Assembly: GCA_003451645.1 (NCBI GenBank)
Contig: DMER01000187.1
Coordinates: 6,910 to 24,349, forward strand
DNA: 17,440 nucleotides
From: Alphaproteobacteria bacterium
GTDB taxonomy: Bacteria > Pseudomonadota > Alphaproteobacteria > Micropepsales > Micropepsaceae
Reading direction: 5' to 3'
The notes below the pieces were generated by a model. It ran no database searches. It was given only the letters and a program-made list of their open reading frames with translations, and was not told the DNA's origin. Of this stretch, positions 291 to 17,440 are shown one piece after another. Position 1 is the stretch's first letter, and each line of letters begins with the position of its first letter. A program made the position numbers and the translations under genes.

Positions 291-1103
291 CTATTCCGCC
301 AGGTCCCACGCGCAGCGGAAACCCACATGCGCCGTAGTGCTGTCGGCGGTGAGGCCAATGCGGGCGGCGGGGCGGTAGCGCTGGCAATACTCAGGCGCAC
401 ACAAATAAGATCCGCCCTTGAGCGCGTAGAGTTTTCCCGGTGGCGCGTCAGGCCCGCAGCATGACGGCGCCGCCCGGTCGAAAGGGCTTTGCGTCCACTC
501 CCAAACATTGCCGGTCATGTCGAATAGGCCTAACGGGTTGGGGGGGAACTGTCCGGCGCGGGAGGGGCCGGGCACACCCTTAGCGCTATACCAGGGAAAC
601 GCCCCGGTCCAGATATTGGCCATGAGCCGCCCCGCGGGCATGAAGTCCTGGCCCCAGGCATAGGGCGCGCCGTCAAGCCCGCCGCGCGCCGCAAACTCCC
701 ACTCATCCTCCGTAGGCAGACGGCCCCCCGCCCATTGCGCATAGGCCAAGGCGTCACTGAGCGACACATGCACAACTGGCAATTCGGTGGCGCCAGCATC
801 AAGCCCCGCGCGCCAGGAGAGGCCAGCCTCGAACCGCCACCATTGCGAGGGATCGTGCAGATTGACCGGCCCAGCGCTCATCTGGAACTGGGCAGAGCCC
901 GGCGGCGAGGCGCGCTCCGCGGTGGTGACGGTGCCCGTTTCTGTGACAAAGCGTGCGAACTCAGCGACCGTGACGGGAGCTGTGCCAAGATAGAACGGCG
1001 CCACGGTGGCAAGCCGCACTGGGCGCTCCTCAAGGTAGTGATCCTCAGACCCGAGACGGACAGTGCCGCCGGGGATGAGGACCACAGACCCTCGCGCGCT
1101 CAA
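291..1103 (-). CDS. Formylglycine-generating enzyme (sulfatase-modifying factor)
   Basis: The 270-residue protein has the FGE-sulfatase (SUMF1-type, C-type lectin-like) fold. Visible marks are IPGG near the N-terminus, [15 protein letters not shown] at 128-142, GNVWEWT at 198-204, and the catalytic end [19 protein letters not shown] with Cys235 and Cys240. That C-x4-C pair matches the two catalytic, copper-binding cysteines of true FGEs, which many SUMF1-domain relatives lack. The family uses oxygen to convert the cysteine of a sulfatase CxPxR motif to formylglycine. No signal peptide is seen, so it should act in the cytoplasm. The start is a TTG whose last two bases are shared with the TGA stop of the sulfatase gene, indicating translational coupling; a GTG six codons later is the alternative. 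The adjacent sulfatase is its obvious substrate. Confidence 0.93.
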
Positions 1104-3493
1104 ATCCGGATCCCGATGCTGTTGATGAACTGCAAGGACTCATAGGCCGTGAACGGACGATTATCGACATTGATCCGGATGCGCGCGATTGCCCCTTGGA
1201 AGGGATTGTTTCCCTCATAGAGGGTCGAGACACGGTTGCCGCTGTCCCGGCCGACGGAGAAACCGTCATAGGACGTCGCTGCAACGCAATGGACAAAGGT
1301 GCGCTCGGCCAATTTGCGGTCGCCCAGATAGATCGCGCCGGACCCTTTGAACGGCCGCTGCGTCATCGTTTGCACATAGCGCACCGTGAGCGGCCCTTCG
1401 GGCAATGCAGCCGAGGCTTCGATGCGGTCGACATACGGAGCCAGGGACTGCTCATAGATGAGCCGGCCCTCCTTGATGTGCAACACATAGCCGGCATGGC
1501 GCGACCCATGAGCGACCAAGACGCCATTGCCTTGGCCCGCGGGCCGCGTTAGTTCGACAATGATCTCGTGCGAAAAGCCGGACACCAGCGGCGCCACCTG
1601 GCTGTGCAAACGCTCAAGCGGCGGCCGGATGTCATAGGCCGGACGGATGCCACGGCGCTGCCGGTCCTGGCTCATTTTGATGATTAGATTGCGGTCATCG
1701 AGCGGGAAGACGTTATAGCGCTTTGCCGCCACATCCCACTTGGCGATCAGCTCTTTGAGCTTATCGGGGTTCTTGGCGGCAAGGTCGTTCAGCTCGTTGA
1801 AGTCAGTGCTCGTATCATAGAGCTCCCAGACATCGTCCGCATAATCGCTGCCACGCTTATGCGCGACAACCGCCCGCCAGGAGCCCTCCATATAGGCGCG
1901 CTGCCCGCCAAGCTCGAAATATTGCTCATTGCGCGTTGGTGCCGCCTTGTCCGCGAAGGTTTTGAGGATGCTCGCCCCTTCCAGGGGCTTGAGCTTGCGC
2001 CCATGATAGACGGACGGCCGTTCGACACCGGCCGCCTCCAGCAAGGTCGGGTAGAGATCGATGACATGCACGAATCTGTCGCGGATGGCGCCCTTGTCGC
2101 TGATGCGCGCGGGCCAGGAGACGATAAGCGGGTCGGCAACACCGCCCAAATGCGCGTACTGCTTATAGAGCCGGAACGGTGTGTTGGACGCGCACGCCCA
2201 GCCAATCGGATAGTGCGGAAAAGTTGCGTCCTCACCCATCACGTCATAGAGCTTGGTGGCCTCCGCGACAGGCACAGGCCGCCCCAGAGCGGACGCCAGC
2301 ACATTGGGCGTGCCGGTCGGCGTGCCTTCCGCCGAGCCGCCATTGTCGGAGATCACGACAATCAAGGTGTTGTCGCGAATGCCTTGGGTCTCCAGCGCCG
2401 CCACGAGCCGCCCAATATTGCTGTCGAGATTGCTGATGAGGCCCGCATAAACCTCCATATAGCGGGCAAAGATGCGGCGCTCCTCGGCGCTCAGCGTGTC
2501 CCAGGCCGAGATACCGGGCGCCAAGGGCGGCAAGGACGTGCTCGCGGGCACCAGGCCCATTTGCTTTTGCCGCTCCAGACGTTGAGCGCGGATGACGTCC
2601 CAGCCGGTGTCATACTGACCCTTGTACTTGTCGCGGTCGCGCGCGCGGGCCTGCAGGGGCGAATGCGCGGCTGGATACCCGATCTGAAGGTAGAAGGGGC
2701 GCTCAGGGTTCAGCGCACGCTGGGTGTTGACATAGGCGATCGCCCGGTCCGTCAGATCATCACAGACGAAGTAATCCTCCGTCGCCGGAGGATCAATGGG
2801 TGCCACGCCGTCAATCAGCTCGGAAGGCTTGAAGTAATCGGTCGAATGGCCTTGGAACCAATAGGCGCGCTCAAACCCGCGCGAGGTTGGCCAATTGTGA
2901 TAGGGTCCATTGGCGCCATTGGCATGGGCAATATTGACGTGCCATTTGCCGACATGAAAGGTCGACCAGCCCTTCTCGACCAACACCTCGGCAGTGGTTG
3001 CGGCCTCAAAGGTCATGTCGCCGCGATAGCCGGGAAAGCCGCTATCCATTTCGGCGATCCAGCCCACACCGGCGGAGTGATGGTTGAGCCCGGTCATGAG
3101 GGCAGCGCGCGTCGGCGAACACATTGCTGTGGTGCGGAAATTGGTATAGCGCAAGCCCGCCTGCGCCAGCGCGTCGAAATGGGGTGTCTTGATCTCGCTG
3201 CCATAGCAGCCCAGATCGGAAAAGCCTACATCATCTAGGACAATGACAATGATATTGGGCGCGCCTTCGGGTGCCTTGCCCTCCACCGCATAAGAGGGCC
3301 TGGAATCGGAAAGCGTTTCGGCGATTTCTGGCGGCGCGCCTTCGGCCACGGCCTCAGGGGTAACGAGTTTGCGGCGCTGGCTGTTCAGATAGGACAGGCC
3401 CGCGGCGCCTGCGCCCACGACACCCGCCCCGCCCGCAGCACCAATGAGCAGCGACCGCCGGTCGAGACCTTTTTTGCCGTCTTGATCACTCAT
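1100..3493 (-). CDS. Tat-exported arylsulfatase, cysteine type
   Basis: The 797-residue enzyme belongs to the alkaline-phosphatase superfamily sulfatases (PF00884), which hydrolyse sulfate esters. The N-terminus has a twin-arginine signal: DRRSLLIG at 11-18, then a Gly/Ala-rich hydrophobic run to about residue 36. Active-site features are Asp87-Asp88 (metal), Cys125 in CSPTR (the CxPxR site for formylglycine), Lys183 and His185 in VGKWH, His277, Asp383-Asn384 in ISDNGG, and Lys444. About the last 170 residues (near 625-797) form a beta-rich module of the kind found in long (about 750-800 residue) bacterial arylsulfatases. The ATG at 3493 overlaps the stop of the preceding gene (ATGA) and has GGAGG 6 nt upstream. 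An in-frame extension upstream lacks comparable support. The substrate cannot be told from sequence. Confidence 0.95.
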
Positions 3494-4653
3494 GACAATC
3501 CTCCAGCCAATGCGCGTTGTAAGTCTTGCTCGACCGCCCAAAGACGGTCCTGGCCCCAATGGGTCGCGCCCTCATTTACCCGGAAGGACGGCACACCCCA
3601 AGCGCCACCGCCAAACATCTCCCGCCGGTTGGCCTCGACGACATCGCGCCAAGAGGGGTCGGCGAGCGCAGCCTTCACGATGCTGGCAGACCCCCCGGCC
3701 CGGGTGGCAAGACTGGCGAGCCCTGCATCTGACGCCGCATCAATCCCCTCGGCAAAGACCCCTGACAGAAAAGACTGCGCGAAGGCGGGCCCTTGCCCTG
3801 CGGGGATTGCATGATGCAGCACCGCAAGACCGCGCTCGGCGCCGGCACCAACCGGATCGGCCACCTTGCCAAAAGGAAGCCCCAGCCGCTCGGCCTCCCT
3901 CTTGCAGTCGGTCAGGATATAGAGCTGCTTGGCACGCGGCACGGGCAGGCCGCGCATGACCATGGGCAGCACGAAACGCAGGCGCAGCTCCGCGCCATAA
4001 TGATCCGCCAATGCCCGCAGCCGGGGGATCGAAAGATAGGTATAGGGGCTGCGGAAGGAGATAAACGCATGGAGGACAGGTTTGCGGGAGGAGGCGGCAA
4101 CGGCCCCGAGCCGAACCTCCAGACGCGGGGCGATGGGCGCGGACGGCGCCCCCTTGACCCTGAAGGGCGCTAAGCGCTCTTCCAGAAAGGCGAGCCGGTC
4201 GAGACCCCAATACCACTCACCTTCGAAATAGAACATGGCACCCAGATAATGCCCCAAGCGGCGCCGCAGGGCGTCACCTTGCGCCAAGGCCTCCTGCGAG
4301 GCGGATGGCAGAGCAACTGGATCCCCGAGGCCCTTGGGTGGCCACTGCAGGCCCTTCGCCAGAACCTGTGCGTCGCGCTCTGCAAAGGCGCGCAGCATCG
4401 CAGCCTCAGGCGCCGCGGCCTGATCGGGCGCGCTCACCACATGAACCTCCAGCGCGATGCGGTAGCGCGCCTTGAGCGCAGGCAAGGCCTGCACTGCCAA
4501 ATGACTATAAGGATCATCGGGCTGGTGAAAGTAATGCACGGTTGGCCGCCCGCCTGTCAGCACGCGCCACAGCGCATGACGTCCGCGCGACCACCCGCGC
4601 AGCGTGGGGCTCGTAACGATCTGAGAAACGACCCGGCTAACGGCCGCACGCAT
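3490..4653 (-). CDS. Tandem DsbA/HCCA-isomerase-like thioredoxin-fold protein
   Basis: The 387-residue protein appears to hold two related thioredoxin-fold domains. The first begins near residue 38 (VHYFHQPDDPYSHLAVQALP). The second begins near 192 (LHAFISFRSPYTYLSIPRLR) and runs to a Trx-type cis-proline loop, WGVPSFRV, with Pro355. The SPYTYL segment with Ser202 resembles 2-hydroxychromene-2-carboxylate isomerases and kappa-class GSTs, which use glutathione and a serine. No CxxC redox motif is present, so it is unlikely to be an ordinary disulfide oxidase. No clear signal peptide is seen. AGGAG lies 7 nt before the ATG. It is the first gene of the sulfatase operon; whether it helps degrade an aromatic sulfate's product or has another role is open. 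Confidence 0.85.
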   Translation of the reverse strand: MRAAVSRVVSQIVTSPTLRGWSRGRHALWRVLTGGRPTVHYFHQPDDPYSHLAVQALPALKARYRIALEVHVVSAPDQAAAPEAAMLRAFAERDAQVLAKGLQWPPKGLGDPVALPSASQEALAQGDALRRRLGHYLGAMFYFEGEWYWGLDRLAFLEERLAPFRVKGAPSAPIAPRLEVRLGAVAASSRKPVLHAFISFRSPYTYLSIPRLRALADHYGAELRLRFVLPMVMRGLPVPRAKQLYILTDCKREAERLGLPFGKVADPVGAGAERGLAVLHHAIPAGQGPAFAQSFLSGVFAEGIDAASDAGLASLATRAGGSASIVKAALADPSWRDVVEANRREMFGGGAWGVPSFRVNEGATHWGQDRLWAVEQDLQRALAGGLS

Positions 4654-7057: not shown

Positions 7058-8539
7058 ATGACCACCCCACTGAAACCCCGTCTTCCGCGTGGCTTTGAAG
7101 ACGCCAATGGCCCTGGACTCGACCTGCAGAACCGGATCATCACGATCCTGTCTGAGGTTTATGCGCGCTATGGCTTTGACCGCTTGACCACGCCAGCGAT
7201 TGAGTTCGCCGATGCGCTGGGCAAGTTCCTGCCCGATCAGGACCGCCCCAATGAAGGTGTGTTTTCGTTCCGCGATGACGACGAGCAATGGCTGTGCCTG
7301 CGCTATGATCTGACCGCGCCATTGGCCCGCTATGTCGCGGAGAATTATGAGCGCCTGAGCTTCCCGTTCCGCCGCTTCCAGACCGGCAGCGTCTTCCGTA
7401 ACGAGAAGCCAGGGCCTGGGCGCTTCCGCGAATTCGTGCAGTTTGATGCGGACACGGTCGGCAGCGCAAATATGGCGGCAGACACCGAATTCTGCATGCT
7501 GGTCGCCGACGCGCTGGAAGCCTTGGGGCTCAACCGCGGCGACTACGCGATCAAGATTAACAACAGAAAGGTTCTTAACGGCATTTTGGAATGCGCTGGC
7601 ATTGCACCCGGCGCCGAGGGCGACATGCAGCGCCTGACCGTGCTGCGCGCCATGGACAAGCTCGACCGGTTGGGCGTTGAAGGCGTGCGGATGCTGCTTG
7701 GCAAGGGCCGCAAGGATGAGTCCGGGGACTTTACCAAGGGTGCGGGCCTCGAGCCGCAGGCTATCGACCGGATTGTCAGCTTTCTGCAAGCGGGCACCAG
7801 CACGGCTAATGATGTGTGTAGCGAATTATCGCATCTGGTCGAGGGCAGCGCCCAGGGTCAAGAGGGCGTCGCGGAACTGAGCACCATGCGCGATCTGCTG
7901 ACGGCTGCGCGCTATCAGGCCGACCGTGTACGGATCGACCCGTCGGTGGTCCGCGGTCTTGCCTATTACACAGGACCGGTCTTTGAGGCGGAACTGACCT
8001 TTGAGATCAAGGACGAGGATGGCCGTGCGGTGCGCTTCGGCTCAATCGGGGGCGGCGGGCGCTATGACGACCTGGTTGAGCGCTTTCTAGGAAAGAAGGT
8101 CCCGGCCACTGGCGTCTCGATTGGCGTCTCGCGCCTTGCGGCCGCGCTCAAAGCGAAGGGCTTGGCGGGCGGAGCGCAGAGTGAGGGACCTGTCGTGGTG
8201 CTGGTTCTCGACCGCGATCAGCTGCCGGGCTATCAGGCGATGGTGAGCGAATTGCGCGGCCATGGGGTGCGGGCCGAGCTTTATCTGGGTGAAGCGGGCA
8301 TGAAGGCGCAGATGAAATACGCTGACCGCCGGGGCGCGCCCCTCATTGTGATCGAGGGCTCCAATGAGCGCGCGAGCGGTCAGCTGACCATCAAGGATTT
8401 GCGCCTGGGAGCAAAACTTTCGGCGGACATCGCCTCTCGCGAGGAATGGGCCAAGGCCAAGGATGGCCAGCAATGGACCATTACCCGCAGCGACCTGGTG
8501 AACAATATCAAAGCGAAGCTTGGCGCTACGGGTGCGTGA
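7058..8539 (+). CDS. hisS: Histidyl-tRNA synthetase
   Basis: The 493-residue class II synthetase charges tRNA-His with histidine in the cytoplasm. Visible features are motif 2 at about 111-133 (VFRNEKPGPGRFREFVQFD), the histidine-binding RGLAYYTG at 299-306, GGGGRYDDLV at 331-340, a class II motif 3 region around GVSIGVSRL, and an anticodon-binding domain from about 379 to the end. The motif 2 tail (VQFDADTVG) differs from the E. coli type (HQLGCEVFG) and matches the divergent HisRS of many alphaproteobacteria. The ATG has a modest GGACAGG upstream. It is first in the hisS-hisZ-hisG operon, with 16 nt to hisZ. Its likely promoter lies in 6930-7057, after the terminator. Confidence 0.96.
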   Translation: MTTPLKPRLPRGFEDANGPGLDLQNRIITILSEVYARYGFDRLTTPAIEFADALGKFLPDQDRPNEGVFSFRDDDEQWLCLRYDLTAPLARYVAENYERLSFPFRRFQTGSVFRNEKPGPGRFREFVQFDADTVGSANMAADTEFCMLVADALEALGLNRGDYAIKINNRKVLNGILECAGIAPGAEGDMQRLTVLRAMDKLDRLGVEGVRMLLGKGRKDESGDFTKGAGLEPQAIDRIVSFLQAGTSTANDVCSELSHLVEGSAQGQEGVAELSTMRDLLTAARYQADRVRIDPSVVRGLAYYTGPVFEAELTFEIKDEDGRAVRFGSIGGGGRYDDLVERFLGKKVPATGVSIGVSRLAAALKAKGLAGGAQSEGPVVVLVLDRDQLPGYQAMVSELRGHGVRAELYLGEAGMKAQMKYADRRGAPLIVIEGSNERASGQLTIKDLRLGAKLSADIASREEWAKAKDGQQWTITRSDLVNNIKAKLGATGA

Positions 8540-8555
8540 GGCAAGGTCGGGCACG

Positions 8556-10046
8556 ATGAGCTTATCCGGATTTCTGGACTATAACGAACCCTTGATCGAT
8601 GCCGTGCACCGCGTGCTTCGCGCGGTTCGCGGCACCTTGCGCAACTATGACTATGCGCTCTTGGAACCACCCGTCATTGACTTTGCGGACGCCTTTATCG
8701 AGCGCTCGGGCGAGGCCATCCGTGAGCGGATGTATTTGTTCGAGGACGAGGCGGGGCAAAATCTGTGCTTGCGCCCGGAGATGACGATTCCTGTGAGCCG
8801 CGCGCTTCTGCGCACCGGCTGGCGCGGCGAGGACGCGGCGCGGATTGGCTACTCAGGTCCCGTTTTCCGCCGCGACGTGGATGGGCCGGGCGGCTTTAAG
8901 CAATTCCTGCAAGCAGGCGCTGAGTGCTTCGGGCCCGGCCCCAGGGCCTATAATGAGGCCGAAATTGTCGCCATGGCGATCAGCATGCTGCAGGGATCGG
9001 GGATCAAAGCGGCACGGGTGCGCTTTGGCGATGTGCGCCTGATCAGCCGCCTAATGGACCGCATCGGCTTGCCCAGCCACGCAAGGCGCGATGCGAACTG
9101 GTTATCGGGCCAGATTGCCGCGTGGCGCAACCATGCGCTCACCGAGCGCGGGATCGAGCAGCAAGCCGGTGCCCGCGCGGATCTGGAATTCATCCGCATT
9201 CTGAAGGATTTGGGGACCGAGCGCGCAACCGCCCTCATCAGCCGGTTTTTGCAGATCAGTGGTATCTCGGTCGTGGGCGCCCGCCCGCTTGAGGCCATTG
9301 TGGAGAGGCTGACGGCACAGCTTTCTGCGACGATACCGCCGCTCCCGGATGCGATCTGGGAGGAGATAAGCGCCTTGTTGGCGCTCAAAGCGCCCGCAAA
9401 AGAAGCTCTCGGCCGGATTGCACAGGCGGGTGCTTCCATCGGCTTTGAGACGGCGGATATTCTCCACGATTTTCGTCACCGCTTTGACGTCATGGGTGCT
9501 GCGGGGCTCGACCTCGACACCATGACAATCGAGCCGGGCTTCCTGCGCGCGATTGAGTATTACACAGGCTTTGTGTTTGAGGTGGCGGCAGAGGCGGATG
9601 GCCAACCGGCACAACTGGCCGGCGGCGGCCGCTATGACGCGCTGATGTCTCAGCTTGGAGGCGGGGTGTCCAGCCCGGCGGTTGGATTTGCTCTGCACAC
9701 GGAGCGTGTCATGCGGGCGGCCGATCCAAGCGTCTTCGCCAAAGGCAGCCTCGCGCACGGCCATCCGGACGTCATCGTCGTGGCTGGGCCTGACGCCGAC
9801 AGCATGCAATGCATGCAGGCCCTACAGCATCTGCGCCAAGCGGGCTTCCGGTCATCCATCGCGCACCGCGATCCAGGGCCTAAACAGGCCGCGCACGCGA
9901 CACTCTTCCTTGAGAACAATGGCACAATTCGCCAGCGCGATGAGCGCAGCGGCGCGGTCACGAGTGTAACTCTGGACGAACTGTCCCGTATGGCGCCGCC
10001 TGCCCGGCCGAGTCTCGGCGCAGAGGCAAGGGGCCAGCGTCCATGA
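8556..10046 (+). CDS. hisZ: ATP phosphoribosyltransferase regulatory subunit HisZ, with extra C-terminal domain
   Basis: The 496-residue protein is a HisRS paralogue that cannot be assumed to charge tRNA; HisZ pairs with HisG to control the first step of histidine synthesis. Its catalytic-core-like region shows CLRPEMTIPVSRALLR (71-86), a motif-2-like FRRDVDGPGGFKQFLQ (104-119), AIEYYTGFVFE (332-342) and AGGGRYDALM (355-364). Unlike typical HisZ, which ends soon after the core, this one continues with about 80 residues (near 403-480, starting PDVIVVAGPDADSMQCMQAL) that resemble the HisRS anticodon-binding domain. The ATG at 8556 is preferred, with AAGG 9 nt upstream; an earlier in-frame start would overlap hisS. 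Its stop overlaps the hisG start (ATGA). A second, divergent HisRS is a less likely alternative. Confidence 0.88.
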   Translation: MSLSGFLDYNEPLIDAVHRVLRAVRGTLRNYDYALLEPPVIDFADAFIERSGEAIRERMYLFEDEAGQNLCLRPEMTIPVSRALLRTGWRGEDAARIGYSGPVFRRDVDGPGGFKQFLQAGAECFGPGPRAYNEAEIVAMAISMLQGSGIKAARVRFGDVRLISRLMDRIGLPSHARRDANWLSGQIAAWRNHALTERGIEQQAGARADLEFIRILKDLGTERATALISRFLQISGISVVGARPLEAIVERLTAQLSATIPPLPDAIWEEISALLALKAPAKEALGRIAQAGASIGFETADILHDFRHRFDVMGAAGLDLDTMTIEPGFLRAIEYYTGFVFEVAAEADGQPAQLAGGGRYDALMSQLGGGVSSPAVGFALHTERVMRAADPSVFAKGSLAHGHPDVIVVAGPDADSMQCMQALQHLRQAGFRSSIAHRDPGPKQAAHATLFLENNGTIRQRDERSGAVTSVTLDELSRMAPPARPSLGAEARGQRP

Positions 10047-11071
10047 CCCAAAACCCTCTCAGACTGGTGATCCCCAGCAAAGGGCGGCTGCAGCAGCCGG
10101 TGATCGACTTTCTGGCGGCCTGCGGTTTTGTGCTGGAGCGCGCCAGCTCCAACCGTGCTTACACGATGACTGTAGCGGGCACGGATGATGTGATTGTGGA
10201 CCTGGCAGCCGCCTCTGAGGTGCCGGGCATGCTCGCGGAGGGCCGCGCGCATCTGGGCATCACCGGCATCGATCTTGTGAATGAGATGTTGGGCGGCCCG
10301 GGGCCTGCCCTTGACGGCGCAAGCCTGCCTGGGGGGCCCATGCTGGTCGTCAAGCTGGGCTTTGGCAGAGCCAACCTGGAGGTGGCAGTGCCGCGCGCCT
10401 GGATCGATGTGGAGACGATGCGCGATGTGTGCGAGGTCGCCCATCAGCACCATGTGCAGAACAAGTCTCGCATCCGAGTCGCCACAAAATACGTCCGCCT
10501 GACGCGCAAATTCCTGAGCGAGGCGCAGCTCACCGATTACCGGATCGTGGAGTCCGCAGGCGCCACTGAGGCAGCGCCGGCCTCTGGCCTCGCCGAGATT
10601 GTCGTAGACATCTCATCGACCGGCGCCACCATGGCGGCCAATCATTTGAAGACGTTGTCGGACGGCCGGATCCTGTCGTCTGAGGCCGCCTTGTTCGCAG
10701 CCCCGCCCGCAACGGTGACCTGGTCCGCCAAGGCCATGGGCGCACTTGAACGCCTGATCCGCATGGCCCGCGCCAGACTAGCGGCGCAGCGGCACAAGCT
10801 GGTCCGGGCGAGCGGGCGCGTTCAGGACGCAAACGCGCTGACCCGCGAACTGGAGACCCTTGGCGTGACCGATGTCGTCCAGACTGTCGAAACAGCCACC
10901 GGCACAACGCGCCTCGATTGCACCGCGTCAGCCCGGCAGGTCTTCAAACTGGTCCAAACCTTACAGAGCTACGGGCTCACCCGTTGCGCGGTCGAGAACG
11001 CGGAACTCTTGTTCCTGCCCGGCGATCAAGACATCGGCGCCGCCCTGACCAAGCTGACTTCGGCACACTGA
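10043..11071 (+). CDS. hisG: ATP phosphoribosyltransferase catalytic subunit, extended form
   Basis: The 342-residue enzyme condenses ATP with PRPP, the committed first step of histidine synthesis. Catalytic-domain marks are IPSKGRLQQPV (10-20), GITGIDLV (72-79), RVATKYVRLTRKF (145-157) and the PRPP loop EIVVDISSTGATMAAN (185-200, Asp189). The short HisG that works with HisZ is usually about 210-230 residues. Here about 100 further residues follow, including GVTDVVQTVETATGTTRLDC and a final ENAELLFLPGD. They are reminiscent of the regulatory end of long HisG but may be a lineage-specific extension. AAGGGG lies 9 nt before the ATG, which overlaps the hisZ stop. Its stop is 13 bp from the convergent asd stop, leaving no room for a separate terminator. 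Confidence 0.93.
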   Translation: MTQNPLRLVIPSKGRLQQPVIDFLAACGFVLERASSNRAYTMTVAGTDDVIVDLAAASEVPGMLAEGRAHLGITGIDLVNEMLGGPGPALDGASLPGGPMLVVKLGFGRANLEVAVPRAWIDVETMRDVCEVAHQHHVQNKSRIRVATKYVRLTRKFLSEAQLTDYRIVESAGATEAAPASGLAEIVVDISSTGATMAANHLKTLSDGRILSSEAALFAAPPATVTWSAKAMGALERLIRMARARLAAQRHKLVRASGRVQDANALTRELETLGVTDVVQTVETATGTTRLDCTASARQVFKLVQTLQSYGLTRCAVENAELLFLPGDQDIGAALTKLTSAH

Positions 11072-12178: not shown

Positions 12179-13084
12179 CTAGGCAAGGAACTCCGCGATG
12201 GGAATGGGAGTGATGGCGACCCCGCCCACGCCGTCCACGGGCCCGTAATCGGTAAAATTGCTGAGACCTGTCGCCAAACTGCGTGGCAACGCATCGATCT
12301 CCGGAAAGCGCGCGGCGACCTTGGCGCGGTCAAGGGTCAAGACGCCCAAGGGCTCCATCCGCATCACGCTCAGATGTTTGCGCGCGAAGGTGCCCAAGCC
12401 GACGGCGCGATAGCCTAGCTTTGGCGTGCCCCTGATCGCCGACCAATCGATTTGGCTAGCTTTGACAGTATCCAGATCGGGCTTGGGCTTGTGCGGGAGT
12501 TTCAGGCGCGCCACTAGCGCGGCTGCGAAATAGCCCTCGGTATGCCCCGCCCAAAGAACCGCCATGGCGCCCCAGGCATGTGGCTTGAACTCTTGCGCAA
12601 TTGCTTTGGCACTGAAGTACCCATTGATGCTCTCCCCACGACGGTCGATGGGGTAGGCAAAGCACGTGCCCTCCTCCGCAAACAGGGGCTCTGGCTTAGC
12701 GAGCACCGCACGCGGCCGCGGCTTGGGGTGCGGCGTGGACCACTTGACCTTAAGGTCATTGAGGATCTTGGCCCGTTTGCGCAGATCGCTCTCGGACATC
12801 TCCAAGGCGCGATTGACCGCCAGATCGCGCCCGCTCGTGATGAGCGCCTGGGCCGTGGTAAAGAGCGAAGGACAGGCAATACCCAAACTGTGGAACTGGT
12901 CTGCGGCGGCCAGCACAAAGGCCGAATGGCTATCGTCATCGGCATCGCCAAGGGCCGGAAACTCGCCCGTCAGCCGCGCAAACAACGCCTCGCCATCGCC
13001 GGGCAAGCGCACCAAGATTTTCAGCCGGTTACGCAAATCCGCAGCATCGTCATTCCCATACAAAGTGGGCGACCAGGTCCCCAT
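12179..13084 (-). CDS. Unidentified 301-residue protein with MGTW-type N-terminus
   Basis: I do not recognise a function. The N-terminal segment MGTWSPTLYGNDDAADLRNR resembles the opening of a widespread unnamed family (MGxWG...DDxAxD, DUF4259-like), followed by a helical, acidic stretch and LITSGRDLAVNRALEMS, which fit that family's pattern. After about residue 125 comes a proline/basic linker (TPHPKPRPRAVLAK), then a second region with AYPIDRRGESINGYFSA and WGAMAVLWAGHTEGYFAAAL. No signal peptide or transmembrane span is evident. The start at 13084 is chosen because AGGAG at 13094-13098 lies 9 nt upstream and because MGTW begins relatives; the ATG at 13093 abuts that same AGGAG. It is divergent from the chlorite dismutase gene (124-bp gap) and could share a transcript with asd. 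Confidence 0.72.
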   Translation of the reverse strand: MGTWSPTLYGNDDAADLRNRLKILVRLPGDGEALFARLTGEFPALGDADDDSHSAFVLAAADQFHSLGIACPSLFTTAQALITSGRDLAVNRALEMSESDLRKRAKILNDLKVKWSTPHPKPRPRAVLAKPEPLFAEEGTCFAYPIDRRGESINGYFSAKAIAQEFKPHAWGAMAVLWAGHTEGYFAAALVARLKLPHKPKPDLDTVKASQIDWSAIRGTPKLGYRAVGLGTFARKHLSVMRMEPLGVLTLDRAKVAARFPEIDALPRSLATGLSNFTDYGPVDGVGGVAITPIPIAEFLA

Positions 13085-13093
13085 GCAGCGCAT

Positions 13094-13098
13094 CTCCT
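13094..13098 (-). promoter_or_regulatory. Ribosome-binding site that fixes the start of the unidentified gene
   Basis: AGGAG on the minus strand directly abuts an ATG at 13093 and lies 9 nt before the ATG at 13084. Zero spacing cannot work, so the second ATG, giving the protein that begins MGTW, is the likely start. Confidence 0.6.
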
Positions 13099-13208
13099 GA
13101 CAAAGCGTTGGCAGGAACTCTAAGGCCAAAAGTTTTCTGCCACGTTCACGCGCGCTCTCACGCAAGTGTCACTGGCCCGTGGTGACGCGCGCAGGCAGAC
13201 ATCGGCTT

Positions 13209-13775
13209 ATGAAACCTTATGCACAATCGCCTTTGCTGGTGACCTTTTGCGGCGCGGACATTGGCCCCTGGCGGATCGTCTCGGCCACGACCGTTTGCGG
13301 CGAGCCCTTGAGCCCTGCACCGCGCCTGTGGATTGGGGAGGGCCGCGACACGCCCGCTCTGCCCGATGCGCGGTGGAGCCTGCGCGCGACAACCAGCAAC
13401 GCCCGGTATACCGCAGCCTCAGAACTGAGCGCCATGCAAAGCAAGCAAGAAGGTCTGGGAAGGCCCGGAGCCACGCGTGCGGCGCTCATCCCGATCTCCA
13501 AGTCGCCCACGTGGTGGGGGATGGCCCAAGATGCGCGCCGTGCCATCTTTGAAGAGACCTCGCACCATATCGCCATCGGCCTCGATTACTTGCCAGCCGT
13601 CGCGCGCCGGCTGCACCACGGCCGGGATTTAGGCGAGCCGTTCGATTTTCTAACCTGGTTTGAGTATGCGCCGGAGGCGGAACCCGCCTTTGACGAGATG
13701 GTCGCGCGGCTGCGGGCAACGCCCGAGTGGACCTATGTCACCCGCGAGATCGATATTCGTCTCGCGCGCGACTAA
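13209..13775 (+). CDS. cld: Chlorite dismutase, short (lineage II) type
   Basis: The 188-residue protein closely resembles the compact heme b chlorite dismutases of Nitrobacter and relatives, which split chlorite into chloride and oxygen. Shared blocks are [19 protein letters not shown] (81-99), [19 protein letters not shown] (102-120), [11 protein letters not shown] (127-137) and [15 protein letters not shown] (142-156). His120 is at the position of the proximal heme ligand, and Arg133 matches the distal arginine required for activity (Arg127 in the Nitrobacter winogradskyi enzyme). It has no signal peptide, which suggests a cytoplasmic location as in other short forms. The ATG at 13209 is favoured by protein alignment although its ribosome-binding site is weak; GTGs at 13179 and 13182 are alternatives. 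Its stop overlaps the stop of convergent leuB. No perchlorate-reduction genes are nearby. Confidence 0.88.
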
Positions 13776-14869
13776 CTGAGCGCAGCAACGATCGCATCGC
13801 CCATTTGCGTTGTGCTCACGACAGCCGCGCCGGGCTCCGCGATATCGCCTGTCCGCAAACCTTGCGCGAGGGCGCGCTCAACAGCCCGCTCAACCCGCGC
13901 AGCGTCTGCCTCCAGCGAGAACGAATAGCGCAGGCACATGGCAAAGGACAGGATCGCAGCGATCGGATTGGCCTTGTTCTGCCCTGCGATGTCGGGCGCC
14001 GAGCCATGGATCGGCTCATAGAGGGCTGGAATGCGGCCATCGGGCAGCCGCGCGCCCAGCGAGGCGGACGGCAGCATGCCGAGTGAACCGGTCAGCATCG
14101 CGGCCTCATCCGACAAGATATCGCCAAAGAGATTATCGGTCAGGATGACATCGAATTGCTTGGGCCGCCGCACCAACTGCATGGCCATGTTGTCCGCGAG
14201 CATATGCGTGAGCTCGATATCAGGGAACTCGGCCGCATGCAGCGCACGCACCTCTTCCCGCCACAGCAGACCCGCCTCCATCACATTAGACTTCTCAGCA
14301 GAACACACCCGGCCTTGGCGCTTGCCCGCGAGCTCAAAGGCAACACGTGCCACGCGGTGAATTTCGTCGGTGGTATAGGAATGTGTATTGACGCCCCGCC
14401 GCTTGCCGCCGGGCAGCGGAATGATCCCGCGCGGCTCGCCGAAATAGACGCCGCCCGTCAGCTCACGGACGATCAGGATATCGAGGCCCTCAATGACCTC
14501 CCGCTTCAGCGTCGAGGCCCCGGCCAGAGGCGCAAAACACAAGGCCGGCCGCAGATTGGCGAACAGCTCCATATTCTTGCGCAAGGACAACAGGCCGCGC
14601 TCAGGCTTGGACTCAAACGGCAAGGTGTCGAACTGCGGACCGCCCACGGCCCCAAACAAGACCGCATCAGCGGCCATCGCCTGCGCCAGCGTCTCCTGCG
14701 ACAAAGGGATGCCGTGGGCTTCGATCGCGGCCCCGCCGACAAGGTCCTCGGTGATCTCAAATCGAAGATGGGACAGTGCGGCCATGACGCGGCGCACTTG
14801 CGCCATGACTTCAGGGCCGATCCCGTCGCCGGGCAGCATCAAGATTTGAAAGGGTCGATTCGTGGTCAT
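13772..14869 (-). CDS. leuB: 3-isopropylmalate dehydrogenase
   Basis: The 365-residue enzyme oxidises and decarboxylates 3-isopropylmalate with NAD, the third step of leucine synthesis. Family features are [16 protein letters not shown] near the N-terminus, [33 protein letters not shown], the metal-binding [17 protein letters not shown] and the NAD-binding [18 protein letters not shown]. The ATG at 14869 is chosen because the protein then begins as homologues do; an in-frame TTG at 14905 is an unlikely alternative. The ribosome-binding site is poor and a small inverted repeat abuts the ATG. A 93-bp AT-rich gap separates it from leuD upstream. Its TAG stop overlaps the TAA stop of the convergent chlorite dismutase gene. 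Confidence 0.97.
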
Positions 14870-14886
14870 GTCCAAATGTATTGGAC
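14870..14886. repeat. Inverted repeat abutting the leuB start
   Basis: GTCCAA (14870-14875) and TTGGAC (14881-14886) are perfect inverted arms around ATGTA. The repeat touches the leuB ATG, so it could be an RNA hairpin hiding the start region or an operator for a leuB promoter in the leuD-leuB gap. The symmetry is seen directly; the function is inferred. Confidence 0.35.
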
Positions 14887-14962
14887 CAAAGGCCGCACAA
14901 CGCAAGCAAGATCATGGCACAGCCAAATACCAGGGCCCCACAACCAAATAATCAACTCAAAG

Positions 14963-15568
14963 TTACAACCACGGTTGTGCCAGCCGCCTTTGCTCTTCGA
15001 AGGCAGAGACTGCTGCCTCATGCCGAAGGGTAAGTCCAATATCATCCCAGCCATTGAGCAAGCATTGTTTACGGAACGGATCGACGTCAAACTTGATGCA
15101 ACCGCCGTCAGGCCCCCTGATCTCTTGGGTCTGCAAATCGACGGAAATGACCGCATTGGCGCCGCGTGAGGCATCGTCCAGCAGCTTGTCTATTTCGCTC
15201 TGTGGTAACACGATGGGCAGGATGCCGTTCTTGAAGCAGTTGCCATGGAAGATATCGGCAAAGGACGGCGCGATCACGACGCGAATGCCAAAGTCGAGCA
15301 AGGCCCATGGCGCATGCTCCCGGCTTGACCCGCAGCCGAAATTCTCCCCCGCAATCAGGATCTGCGCTTTGCGATAAGCGGGCTTGTTCAAGACGAAGTC
15401 TGGGTTCTCCGTGCCATCGTTGCCATAGCGCATCTCGTCGAACAGATGCTTGCCAAGGCCGGTGCGCGCGATGGTTTTGAGGAACTGCTTCGGGATGATC
15501 ATGTCGGTATCGACATTGATCATGGGCAAAGGCGCCGCAACGCCAGTGAGGGAGGTGAACTTTTGCAT
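14963..15568 (-). CDS. leuD: 3-isopropylmalate dehydratase small subunit
   Basis: The 201-residue protein is the swivelling small subunit that joins LeuC to form isopropylmalate isomerase, the second step of leucine synthesis. It carries the family blocks [18 protein letters not shown] (14-31), [18 protein letters not shown] (73-90) and [17 protein letters not shown] (103-119). The length is normal. Its ATG directly follows the TAA of the upstream DUF4276-like gene with no intervening base, and its ribosome-binding site (TAGGA) lies inside that gene's last codons. In an undisturbed operon its upstream neighbour would be leuC, whose end is found 1.75 kb away. Confidence 0.97.
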
Positions 15569-16141
15569 TTAGGTTCCTAGCGATGAGGGGCTTCGAACGA
15601 TGCCCAAGGCTTGCGTAAAGTGACGAAAGCTTCGTGACCGGTTCTGGTCAATGATCATGTTTGGACCAACACGCCGTGCGAAATCCAAAGGACTGTAAGG
15701 CTTTACGATCTTTTTGAGCTCTTGCTTCGGATTGATGACCGCATCGGGATCGCGATACAAAGCTCTTGCCCCTAACCGCTTTGCTTCACGCAGTGAGATG
15801 TATCCGGTTTTGGCCAAGGCAGGGAAATCGCCCAAATACCAAGCCTCCAACTCCCGGCAAACGATCCGTACTTTCGTCTTTTGCTGCGCGCTTGCAGGTA
15901 TCTTTGCGGTCAGTTCCGCTTTGAGCTCGGTGCAATCCGTCGCGTGATCTTGGTCTCGTGCGACAACGAAGCGGGTGTCCGGCGCCAACCATGCGCCAAT
16001 CTTGCGCGGGAACGACTTCTCCAGGTCTGATTTACCTTCATGCGTGATCACCTTCACGTGGCTCATCTGATGGGCTTCGAGGAGCGCCTGGATCAAGACT
16101 GTCATGGACCGCTCCTCAACAAACACGGCCAGCTGATTCAT
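15569..16141 (-). CDS. DUF4276-like protein with TOPRIM-type acidic residues
   Basis: The 190-residue protein begins AVFVEERSMTVLIQALL, where Glu9/Glu10 fit the first acidic position of a TOPRIM domain. It continues to FVVARDQDHATDC, with Asp63 and Asp65 as a DxD motif. A third block, RIVCRELEAWYLGDFPALAK (93-111, Glu97, Glu99, Trp101), is typical of DUF4276 proteins as I recognise them. TOPRIM domains with these residues bind metal and cut or rejoin nucleic acid, so a nuclease effector is plausible but not shown. The ATG overlaps the stop of the ATPase gene (ATGA) with only a distant GAGGG, suggesting coupled translation. It ends flush against leuD. GC content is about 51% in a 120-base hand count (15661-15780), below the leu genes. 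Confidence 0.8.
   Translation of the reverse strand: MNQLAVFVEERSMTVLIQALLEAHQMSHVKVITHEGKSDLEKSFPRKIGAWLAPDTRFVVARDQDHATDCTELKAELTAKIPASAQQKTKVRIVCRELEAWYLGDFPALAKTGYISLREAKRLGARALYRDPDAVINPKQELKKIVKPYSPLDFARRVGPNMIIDQNRSRSFRHFTQALGIVRSPSSLGT
15575..15579 (-). promoter_or_regulatory. leuD ribosome-binding site inside the DUF4276-like gene
   Basis: TAGGA on the minus strand lies 6 nt before the leuD ATG and is read as the Leu-Gly codons (CTA GGA) just before the final Thr of the DUF4276-like protein. It overlaps one of the two CTAGG copies that flank the cassette. Confidence 0.6.
15576..15580 (-). repeat. CTAGG, cassette edge on the leuD side
   Basis: This five-base copy matches the one at 17331-17335, at the leuC end. 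Joining the two copies removes 1,755 bp and leaves leuC with its own TAG stop, then 8 nt, then the leuD ATG with its ribosome-binding site intact. Five bases can match by chance, so this is only suggestive of a target-site duplication or deletion endpoint. Confidence 0.35.
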
Positions 16142-17322
16142 TTGGGATCAGCACCCTCAAAAAGGCCCTGCTTCCACAGATCGCCGGGGTGATCGCCGGC
16201 TTCCGCGAACTTGACCAGTTGCTGTTCTTGGTTCGCGCGCCGCACGGATGTGAAACCCTTCGTCTTGTGCAGCCAATAAATGTTCTCTAGGTCCACATGG
16301 TTCAGAAAATCAGGCGAGTGCGTTGAAACAAAGACTTGGCCGCCGCGCGCGGAATACTCGGCGAATTCTTCGGCAAGGTGAGGCAGGAGCGTCGGATATA
16401 ACTGGTTCTCCGGCTCTTCGACGCAAAGCAGCGGGTGAGGCGTGGGATCATTCAAAAGAACCAGATAGGCAAACATCTTGATGGTGCCATCCGAGACAAA
16501 TCGCGAGACAAAAGGGTCCTTGAAGCTGCCATCCTGGAACCGAAGGACCAAACGGCCGTCGGCCATCGTTTCGGCGGTGACCCCGGCCACGCCCGGAACC
16601 CTTCGTTTCATCTTGTCCAGAATTCTACCGAATATCGTTGGATGAGACTCGTAGAGGAATTGCGTGACCAAGGGCAGATTGTCGCCCTCTGGCGACAAAT
16701 GTTCCGCATAACCCGCATCCTTGCTGCCCCTCGCAGCCGAGATATGGAAATCGGAAACATGCCAATTCTCGATCAGTGAGCGGAATTGGCTTGCCGCGAG
16801 GAATCGCTGAAATTGCCCCAATCCCTTTATGGCAAGAATATCGGGCGAGTCTAGCCTCTGCGTCTCGCGCTTCAGTTCAAGATCGGAAGCGAAGTTCTCT
16901 TCGTCGACGATCGCTTCCCCCTCGCCATTCGAAAACTTCAGAAAATAGAAAGGCTGGCCAGTGCCGCCTCGCCGATAGCGAAGATATTCGTTGGCGACGA
17001 TGGGTTGCCCCTTCTCAAGCCGGATTTCCACGCCATAGGTGACAACCCGCTCGCGGTCAATCAAGTTTACCTTGGCCTTCAGTTCAATGAGGATCGGCTC
17101 ATTTTCCTGCTCCCGGCTGACAACTTCCCGAAAGCCGCCGCGAACTTGCAGGGCTTGGCGGACATTGTTCTTGAGACAATCGCGCAAGAACCCAAAAATA
17201 TCAAAGAATGTCGACTTTCCCGACCCATTCGCGCCCACTAGCACCGTGAACTTGGGCACATTGGTGAGATGCACGTCCTTCAGGGACTTGAAGTTCTTGA
17301 TCCTGATGTCCTGTATGTGCAT
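16138..17322 (-). CDS. AAA/ABC-type ATPase (AAA_21/AAA_15, OLD-like)
   Basis: The 394-residue protein is a RecF/SMC/OLD-type ATPase without a coiled-coil arm. It shows the N-terminal IRIKNFKSLKDVHL, Walker A GANGSGKST (30-38), an ABC-signature-like FVSDGTIKM (275-283), Walker B LLCVEEPEN with Glu302/Glu303 (298-306), and a switch histidine in VSTHSPDFL (His335). The middle (about 60-270) varies and could hold a sensor surface. Such ATPases next to TOPRIM-like proteins are common in defence modules (OLD/Gabija, PARIS), where the ATPase senses or holds back the effector. The ATG is 9 nt past the leuC stop, with AGGAG about 19 nt upstream and TAGG 9 nt upstream. GC is about 54% in a 120-base hand count (16921-17040). 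The fold call is firm; a defence role is inferred. Confidence 0.92.
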   Translation of the reverse strand: MHIQDIRIKNFKSLKDVHLTNVPKFTVLVGANGSGKSTFFDIFGFLRDCLKNNVRQALQVRGGFREVVSREQENEPILIELKAKVNLIDRERVVTYGVEIRLEKGQPIVANEYLRYRRGGTGQPFYFLKFSNGEGEAIVDEENFASDLELKRETQRLDSPDILAIKGLGQFQRFLAASQFRSLIENWHVSDFHISAARGSKDAGYAEHLSPEGDNLPLVTQFLYESHPTIFGRILDKMKRRVPGVAGVTAETMADGRLVLRFQDGSFKDPFVSRFVSDGTIKMFAYLVLLNDPTPHPLLCVEEPENQLYPTLLPHLAEEFAEYSARGGQVFVSTHSPDFLNHVDLENIYWLHKTKGFTSVRRANQEQQLVKFAEAGDHPGDLWKQGLFEGADPK

Positions 17323-17330
17323 CGGATTTG

Positions 17331-17335
17331 CCTAG
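17331..17335 (-). repeat. CTAGG, cassette edge on the leuC side
   Basis: This copy spans the leuC stop codon (AAC TAG G) and pairs with the copy at 15576-15580. Only the five bases are identical; the neighbouring bases differ on both sides. Confidence 0.35.
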
Positions 17336-17440
17336 TTAAGGCTCCTCACATCCGTCAAACGCCCTGTCACGGCTGCAGCAGCGGCCATGGCGGGGCTCAT
17401 CAGATGGGTGCGCACGCCGCGGCCCTGGCGGCCTTCAAAG
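17332..17440 (-). CDS. leuC: 3-isopropylmalate dehydratase large subunit, C-terminal end only
   Basis: The last 35 residues are visible, beginning [20 protein letters not shown] and ending RLTDVRSLN before a TAG. This is the conserved C-terminal tail of LeuC (the block after the active-site SNRNFEGRQG), which with LeuD isomerises 2- to 3-isopropylmalate using a 4Fe-4S cluster. The rest lies beyond the right edge. The gene is the first visible member of the leu operon, and it is followed after 9 nt by the ATPase gene instead of leuD. Confidence 0.93.

Follow-up and report, generated by a model that had tools for sequence, protein, structure and literature searches.

PARIS consists of the ATPase AriA and the Toprim nuclease AriB and is described as 'class 4 OLD'; its ATPase restrains the nuclease until an infection signal arrives. 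We take the AriB-type Toprim partner to correspond to DUF4435. In the Septu and retron PtuAB systems the partner, PtuB, is an HNH nuclease. OLD proteins of classes 1 and 2, like GajA of Gabija, have a UvrD-like helicase as neighbour, and GajA combines the ATPase and the Toprim domain in one chain that is followed by the helicase GajB. According to PMC12796447, the ATPase of Gabija also controls a nuclease, by a different route. For Bp OLD, the catalytic residues given in PMC6755086 are E400, D455/D457 and E508. HEC-01, a PADLOC Hma-embedded candidate defined by the models PDLC04143 and PDLC04144, appears as a predicted system in PMC12724379. HECs in general are treated in PMC12988326 and PMC10855318, the former of which reports several as active in assays and names HEC-06. 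No phage phenotype was found for HEC-01 itself in the literature searched, which counts against a defence reading, and it contained no paper on DUF4276 or on MADS with mad3 and mad4.

A two-gene cassette between leuC and leuD

The window, that is, the whole stretch of 17,440 nt analysed here, ends where its 24,349-nt contig ends. An earlier note on this DNA had placed a two-gene cassette between leuC and leuD, on one strand and with gaps of 9, -4 and 0 nt. This leuC–cassette–leuD layout is real and its coordinates are exact, with LeuC present as a 35-codon fragment. Read along the minus strand, the order is as follows.

17332..17439, minus strand: leuC 3' end, last 35 codons plus TAG stop (the second frame of the reverse strand reads as the LeuC C-terminus)
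17323..17331, minus strand: 9-nt spacer from leuC stop to ATPase start (sequence)
16138..17322, minus strand: ABC/OLD-type ATPase, HEC-01 ATPase component, 394 aa (PADLOC, Pfam, model)
15569..16141, minus strand: DUF4276 protein of 190 aa, the predicted Toprim-like nuclease component (its gene overlaps that of the ATPase by 4 nt)
14963..15568, minus strand: leuD, isopropylmalate dehydratase small subunit (Pfam Aconitase_C, 1e-41), starting at the base right after the DUF4276 stop
13772..14905, minus strand: leuB, isopropylmalate dehydrogenase (Pfam Iso_dh, 3.8e-132)

LeuC was identified from its tail alone because the contig stops there, the remainder of the gene lying beyond the contig end; the fragment is 66–91% identical to the LeuC tails of relatives. 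LeuD reaches up to 86% identity to LeuD of relatives, and its matches include two at 84% named Alphaproteobacteria and one at 81% named Micropepsaceae, which marks the organism as an alphaproteobacterium. A leuC gene cut by the contig end, in a genome that is 83% complete and in 255 contigs, could mean that misassembly has joined an unrelated cassette to leuC, an explanation to which we give almost no weight. The ATPase–DUF4276–leuD–leuB side is internal to the contig, and the same gene order occurs in two other genomes. In addition, the database proteins identical to the window ATPase and LeuD, and one identical to the window DUF4276 over the 94% covered, all have 229,562 bases given as the length of their longest contig, which suggests that cassette and leuD are probably also linked in a longer assembly.

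The 9-nt spacer was searched for a good Shine–Dalgarno sequence at the usual distance from the ATPase start and none was found, so translational coupling to leuC is plausible. A scan for sigma-70-type promoters gave one promoter-like site, on the other strand, against 1.2 expected, and terminator-like sites numbered seven against 4.7 expected. Because no promoter-like site above chance was seen in the region, the pair may use transcription of the leucine operon.

Several other features of the window were recorded. A formylglycine-generating-enzyme-like gene lies beside a sulfatase gene (291-3559, minus strand), and two HisS-like genes followed by hisG occupy 7058-11071 on the plus strand; the second is presumably hisZ, which would make this cluster probably hisS-hisZ-hisG. 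A 328-aa ORF with no Pfam match at 1e-5 lies between an asd-like gene and leuB (12182-13165, minus strand). No Rfam families were found in the window.

The cassette belongs to HEC-01

Profile searches against defence-system models, which the earlier note had proposed as a check, returned HEC-01 for both proteins, nearly end to end. The ATPase matches PDLC04144 at 2.9e-191 (residues 1-394 on profile positions 1-395 of 395) and also Pfam AAA_21 (4.8e-31) and AAA_15. Its predicted model, with a mean pLDDT of 80.2, resembles SMC, Rad50, OLD and PtuA heads in structure comparison. Conservation was read from 33 aligned sequences, in which the motifs below are intact, as expected of an ABC-type ATPase of the OLD family in the broad sense; the key residues of the H-loop region are likewise invariant.

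17209..17235, minus strand: Walker A GANGSGKST, residues 30-38 (G30, N32, G33, G35 and K36 invariant in 33 aligned sequences)
16477..16494, minus strand: ABC signature-like SDGTIK, residues 277-282 (S277, D278, G279, T280 and K282 invariant in 33 aligned sequences)
16402..16431, minus strand: Walker B region LLCVEEPENQ, residues 298-307 (L298, C300, E303, P304, E305, N306 and Q307 invariant)

The corresponding model for the partner, PDLC04143, matches at 1.2e-47 (residues 1-179 on profile positions 1-180 of 190), and DUF4276 (2.5e-14) is the sole Pfam match of this protein at E up to 1. In VIA-align comparisons the nearest matches of its predicted model were Toprim nuclease regions, those of OLD proteins and of PARIS, whereas a Foldseek search with the model gave no match under 1e-3. 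The Toprim-like reading of DUF4276, and with it the predicted Toprim fold that the OLD family in the broad sense has in its nuclease part, thus rests on the VIA-align comparison and on a conserved motif, read from 40 aligned sequences.

16115..16117, minus strand: E9, possibly equivalent to the Toprim glutamate (conservation of 90% or more across 40 aligned sequences)
15947..15955, minus strand: D63 and D65 of a DxD motif, which may bind metal (conservation of 90% or more across 40 aligned sequences)
15845..15847, minus strand: E99, candidate counterpart of the OLD second-metal glutamate (invariant in 40 aligned sequences)

Judged from aligned ranges, E9, D63, D65 and E99 may correspond to E400, D455, D457 and E508 of Bp OLD.

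The earlier note had likened the cassette to Gabija and PARIS. The general likeness stands, in that the structure comparisons agree with an OLD-like ATPase and a Toprim-like partner, but by sequence the pair is neither and fits the two HEC-01 models instead. No AriB or DUF4435 match was found in the pair with PADLOC or Pfam at E up to 1, DUF4276 taking the place that AriB has in PARIS. Unlike Gabija, the window has two separate chains, and where OLD classes 1 and 2 and GajA have their helicase neighbour, the cassette has leuC and leuD. The Toprim-like partner likewise differs from the HNH nuclease of Septu. The ATPase also matches mad3 of MADS (1.4e-24) and the DUF4276 protein weakly matches mad4 (1e-5), but the NCBIfam MAD3 score of 124.3 bits falls well below the cut-off of 420. 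By its sequence, therefore, the cassette is a member of the known candidate kind HEC-01, differing from HEC-01 as known in standing directly after leuC, and it is best read as a split OLD-like nuclease with a probable role in defence.

Gene order and neighbours in related loci

GTDB genomes were scanned with the ATPase alignment, and the best 80 of at least 562 loci were kept. A DUF4276 ORF lies directly downstream of the ATPase in 74 of these 80 by the gap rule and in 78 when four longer overlapping ORFs are allowed, the same order as in the window, whereas L127 and L165 have none. The pairing is thus more than chance, and related pairs also stand after leuC elsewhere. Four of the 78 DUF4276 ORFs are short (L125, L133, L154 and L160, 87-133 aa) and a fifth, in L190, is split in two, which may mean that part of the copies are broken. 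Taken with the two loci that lack it, DUF4276 is missing, short or split beside an intact-looking ATPase in seven loci, a possible decay of the nuclease part.

Type I restriction-modification ORFs, recognised from BLAST clusters, were found within three ORFs of the pair in 18 of the 80 loci, or in 16 without the unconfirmed L148 and L149, and some of these rest on short ORFs. In a Pfam check, 8 of 10 such ORFs matched HsdR, HsdS or HsdM, and two from L149 were without match. In L175, L184 and L185 the pair lies between HsdS-like and HsdM-like genes (Pfam-checked in L185). These neighbours support a defence role by association. The defence reading of the earlier note is therefore supported in part, by the strong HEC-01 match and by restriction-modification neighbours in some other loci.

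Copies in L115, L116, L120 and L176 adjoin genes that we take, by eye, to be ileS, metH/htpG and rph/rdgB. Tight operon packing was considered as a habit of the pair and set aside: a same-strand neighbour lay within 50 nt on the upstream side at 24 of 77 loci and on the downstream side at 25 of 75, which was judged to be ordinary packing.

The fixed two-gene arrangement would also suit an addiction module, in which the ATPase is an antitoxin and DUF4276 a toxin that kills cells losing the cassette, allowing it to persist selfishly in operons. PARIS AriA is deposited as 'AriA antitoxin' in some entries, and the structures that DUF4276 matched include one chain from the PARIS complex. We nevertheless consider such a module unlikely as the explanation: low prevalence and empty sites (see below) mean that the cassette is often absent, and the restriction-modification neighbours favour defence. 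Nor does it exclude defence; abortive systems behave as both.

The leuC 3' end as a recurrent address

In 5 of the 80 loci the pair stands directly after leuC. These are L114, L130, L140, L150 and L157, from Magnetospirillum sp. SS-4, a Rhodospirillales bacterium, Methylocystis sp., Jiella flava and a Hyphomicrobiales bacterium, and they comprise all records among the best 80 that are titled with an alphaproteobacterial group. Three further records (L132, L148 and L189) are titled only 'Proteobacteria', of which L148 and L189 fall beside Thauera and Burkholderia in the tree. The exact order leuC–ATPase–DUF4276–leuD–leuB is found in SS-4 and the Rhodospirillales bacterium, while the other three have leuD elsewhere in the genome. 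L216, which belongs to the same family as Methylocystis, adds a sixth case of the pair directly after leuC. With the window, the leuC-linked lineages number seven: its own order, two Rhodospirillales and four Rhizobiales. Junction lengths differ among the leuC-linked loci. No LeuC match was found beside the pair in the other 75 of the 80 loci, a few of which have little upstream sequence.

Since these carriers include several bacteria only distantly related to one another, the observations suggest that the 3' end of leuC, a housekeeping gene, is a repeated landing site for HEC-01-type pairs. The recurrence of this address in other orders is the new and most interesting part of the analysis; no description of a site after leuC for defence genes was found in the literature searched.

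Patchy presence and empty sites

The earlier note had called for a comparison of the leuC–leuD interval across relatives, and the pair proved not to be fixed there. A DUF4276 search of the window's own family found the pair in 1 of 96 genomes, and an ATPase search of its own order, which returned the same 96 genomes, likewise gave 1 of 96. In a sample of the class, the ATPase was present at 1e-80 in at least 6 of 385 genomes, with leuC shown only at the window, although one of these loci, L195, has just 190 nt of upstream sequence in which leuC could show. The order of Jiella gave matches in at least 3 of 397 genomes, at least one of them at leuC. At most four first-look candidates per genome were scored in the scans of the class and of this order, which makes their counts lower bounds. 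In the family of Magnetospirillum, 3 of 55 genomes had a match, one at leuC and another after a gene reading as guaA, and in that of Methylocystis 2 of 149 genomes had one, both at leuC.

The junction itself was surveyed in the family of Magnetospirillum at 43 of 52 listed leuD places, one of which is SS-4. Between the point where LeuC ceases to align and the start of leuD lie 7-32 nt, stop codon included, in 27 of the 38 relatives measured, the remaining 11 having 79-1565 nt of other sequence; at four places no leuC was found within about 9.3 kb. Since junctions in relatives are mostly short, the SS-4 cassette is an insertion at a usually empty junction. In three relatives (L220, L227 and L247) 542-706 nt separate leuC from leuD, with GC-rich, repeat-like CCCCTCCCC stretches at the ends of the gap, and in L249 and L250 the junction is taken up by one same-strand ORF each, of 465 and 428 aa.

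The window's own family presents a different picture. Among 80 relative regions, leuC was found upstream of leuD within reach in 15, with gaps from 8 to 3093 nt, and the window pair was never found in these 15, other cargo being present instead. The leuC–leuD interval thus appears variable in its own right. Two more of the regions (L112 and L113) are paralogous leuCD pairs, and in the largest genus leuC is mostly located at another place. The leuD–leuB gap varies too, from overlap to about 1 kb in L034-L111, so extra DNA enters more than one joint of the leu operon in this family.

The idea that this cargo forms a defence island was set aside, since of ten interval ORFs, picked by eye from a longer list, none matched PADLOC at 1e-3. 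Pfam gave beta-lactamase-like, glyoxalase, DUF2442, DUF4160, DUF3089, HupE/UreJ and one weak HepT-like match, and two ORFs had none. Two overlapping ORFs fill the interval at L043:6585-7783, the first of them weakly HepT-like and just under the Pfam cut-off. At L037:5614-6094, a DUF4160 ORF identified with Pfam overlaps a short ORF just after leuC, read by eye as presumably DUF2442-like, in an arrangement that resembles a toxin-antitoxin pair.

A different role altogether, in genome maintenance, the cell cycle or leucine regulation, with a functional tie to the operon, would sit well with a leuC linkage that recurs in seven lineages. Cran1, an OLD-family protein of one archaeon, is reported to function in the cell cycle and seemingly has no part in defence (PMC12796447). 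We hold such a role to be quite improbable. The pair is absent from 95 of 96 genomes of the order and is therefore not needed for leucine synthesis; most copies lie away from leuC as far as upstream sequence reaches, some are in restriction-modification operons, and the best match is a candidate defence system.

Phylogeny, composition and the leuC junction

In a first tree, the six leuC-linked ATPases and the database proteins P0002 and P0003 formed one clade (92/63) next to a cyanobacterial clade. A second tree also included L216, L206 and L195 but omitted L196 and L148. Its best topology splits off the Rhodospirillales pair, although a p-AU of 0.49 does not reject a single clade; support of 97/95 unites the window with the four Rhizobiales and P0002/P0003. 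The leuC-linked ATPases therefore form one or two clades. Identity among the six leuC-linked ATPases is 59-71%, against 68-77% for LeuC of five leuC-linked genomes and two own-family stand-ins (81% between the stand-ins). The leuC-linked ATPases are 61-71% identical to a copy from the cyanobacterium Crocosphaera, as near as they are to each other, which counts against the reading favoured below.

The first tree groups the leuC-linked ATPases by order, and their divergence is roughly parallel to that of LeuC, as vertical descent with many losses would produce. The pair could accordingly be a relic of one early alphaproteobacterial insertion after leuC that has since been lost almost everywhere, a history also in keeping with the clade at 92/63, which the changed set of sequences leaves at p-AU 0.49. 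We regard it as unlikely. Prevalence is very low, at 1 of 96 genomes in the own order and, counting copies at leuC, 1 of 55, at least 1 of 397 and 2 of 149 elsewhere. Many losses would also have to restore short leuC–leuD junctions, though recombination with empty alleles could do so.

Composition bears on the same point, the GC3 of the cassette lying below that of its neighbours in all seven lineages. In six of them it is lower than that of their own leuC by 0.17-0.38, for instance 0.50/0.54 (ATPase/DUF4276) against 0.82 in L130 and 0.58/0.53 against 0.91 in L216. The window cassette is only modestly lower, at 0.66/0.62 against 0.71-0.78 in nine other window genes, and below leuB, leuD, asd and hisS by 0.05-0.12. 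Low GC3 together with patchiness favours repeated horizontal acquisition over vertical descent, although low GC is common in defence genes, which weakens the argument from GC3.

The LeuC tail may hold a trace of such an event. The motif LMSP occurs in the tail of the window, where 11 further residues follow, in 10 of 15 own-family tails and in none of 38 from the family of Magnetospirillum. At the place following it, V, I or L and then TG is found in all 38 tails of the latter family and in none of the 15 own-family tails. The residues of the window tail may have arrived together with the cassette as a short tract from the donor, a lead that concerns few residues in a genus of one genome. Over the leuC tail, nucleotide identity is 0.73 to SS-4 and 0.77 to the own-family L035, so SS-4 is not singled out.

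Proposed mechanism and mobility

We favour the view, probably correct though well short of secure, that the cassette is a split OLD defence pair of the HEC-01 type, acquired horizontally and repeatedly placed after leuC, the likely route being homologous recombination. An ABC-type ATPase would act as sensor or switch for a separate Toprim-like nuclease, DUF4276; the two genes overlap and their order is fixed. If the pair works in the manner of PARIS and Gabija, the ATPase may hold the nuclease inactive until an infection signal releases or positions it, and the freed nuclease would then cut nucleic acid, stopping phage production or the cell. The window pair was probably gained horizontally; it fits precisely into the space from the leuC stop to the leuD start, a position in which it would be transcribed with the leucine operon. 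In Alphaproteobacteria one or two related cassette lineages seem to have occupied the address after leuC repeatedly.

Regarding the route of entry, no recombinase was found among the window genes tested by Pfam, and no repeats of at least 11 nt bracket the cassette as a transposon signature would, the repeat pairs found lying inside genes. Because both recombinase and junction repeats are lacking in this sense, we infer homologous recombination through the conserved flanks of leuC and, where adjacent, leuD as the likely route. Searches for carriers returned one phage record (35% identity, E limit 1e-20), ten plasmid records (E limit 1e-40) and four viral contigs; so few records give no sign of phages or plasmids as main carriers. 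A bolder proposal, which we advance tentatively and think somewhat more apt to fail than to hold, is that an HEC-01 lineage without a recombinase of its own keeps the leuC 3' end as a standing alphaproteobacterial address and moves as an allele of the leu operon. It might pass between genomes by homologous recombination through leuC and leuD, with gene transfer agents, natural uptake or transduction as examples of vehicles, and rely on the operon for its transcription.

Known insertion hotspots of defence genes are mostly tRNA genes, prophages and islands between operons. If the proposal is true, a universal biosynthetic gene would be a docking site for the defence gene pool, and a recombinase-free two-gene cassette that recurs after one biosynthetic gene would offer another explanation for the spread of small defence systems. 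It would also supply a simple search rule, to look directly after leuC, and would bring a widespread OLD-like pair, of which copies from named organisms are known, within reach of direct assay.
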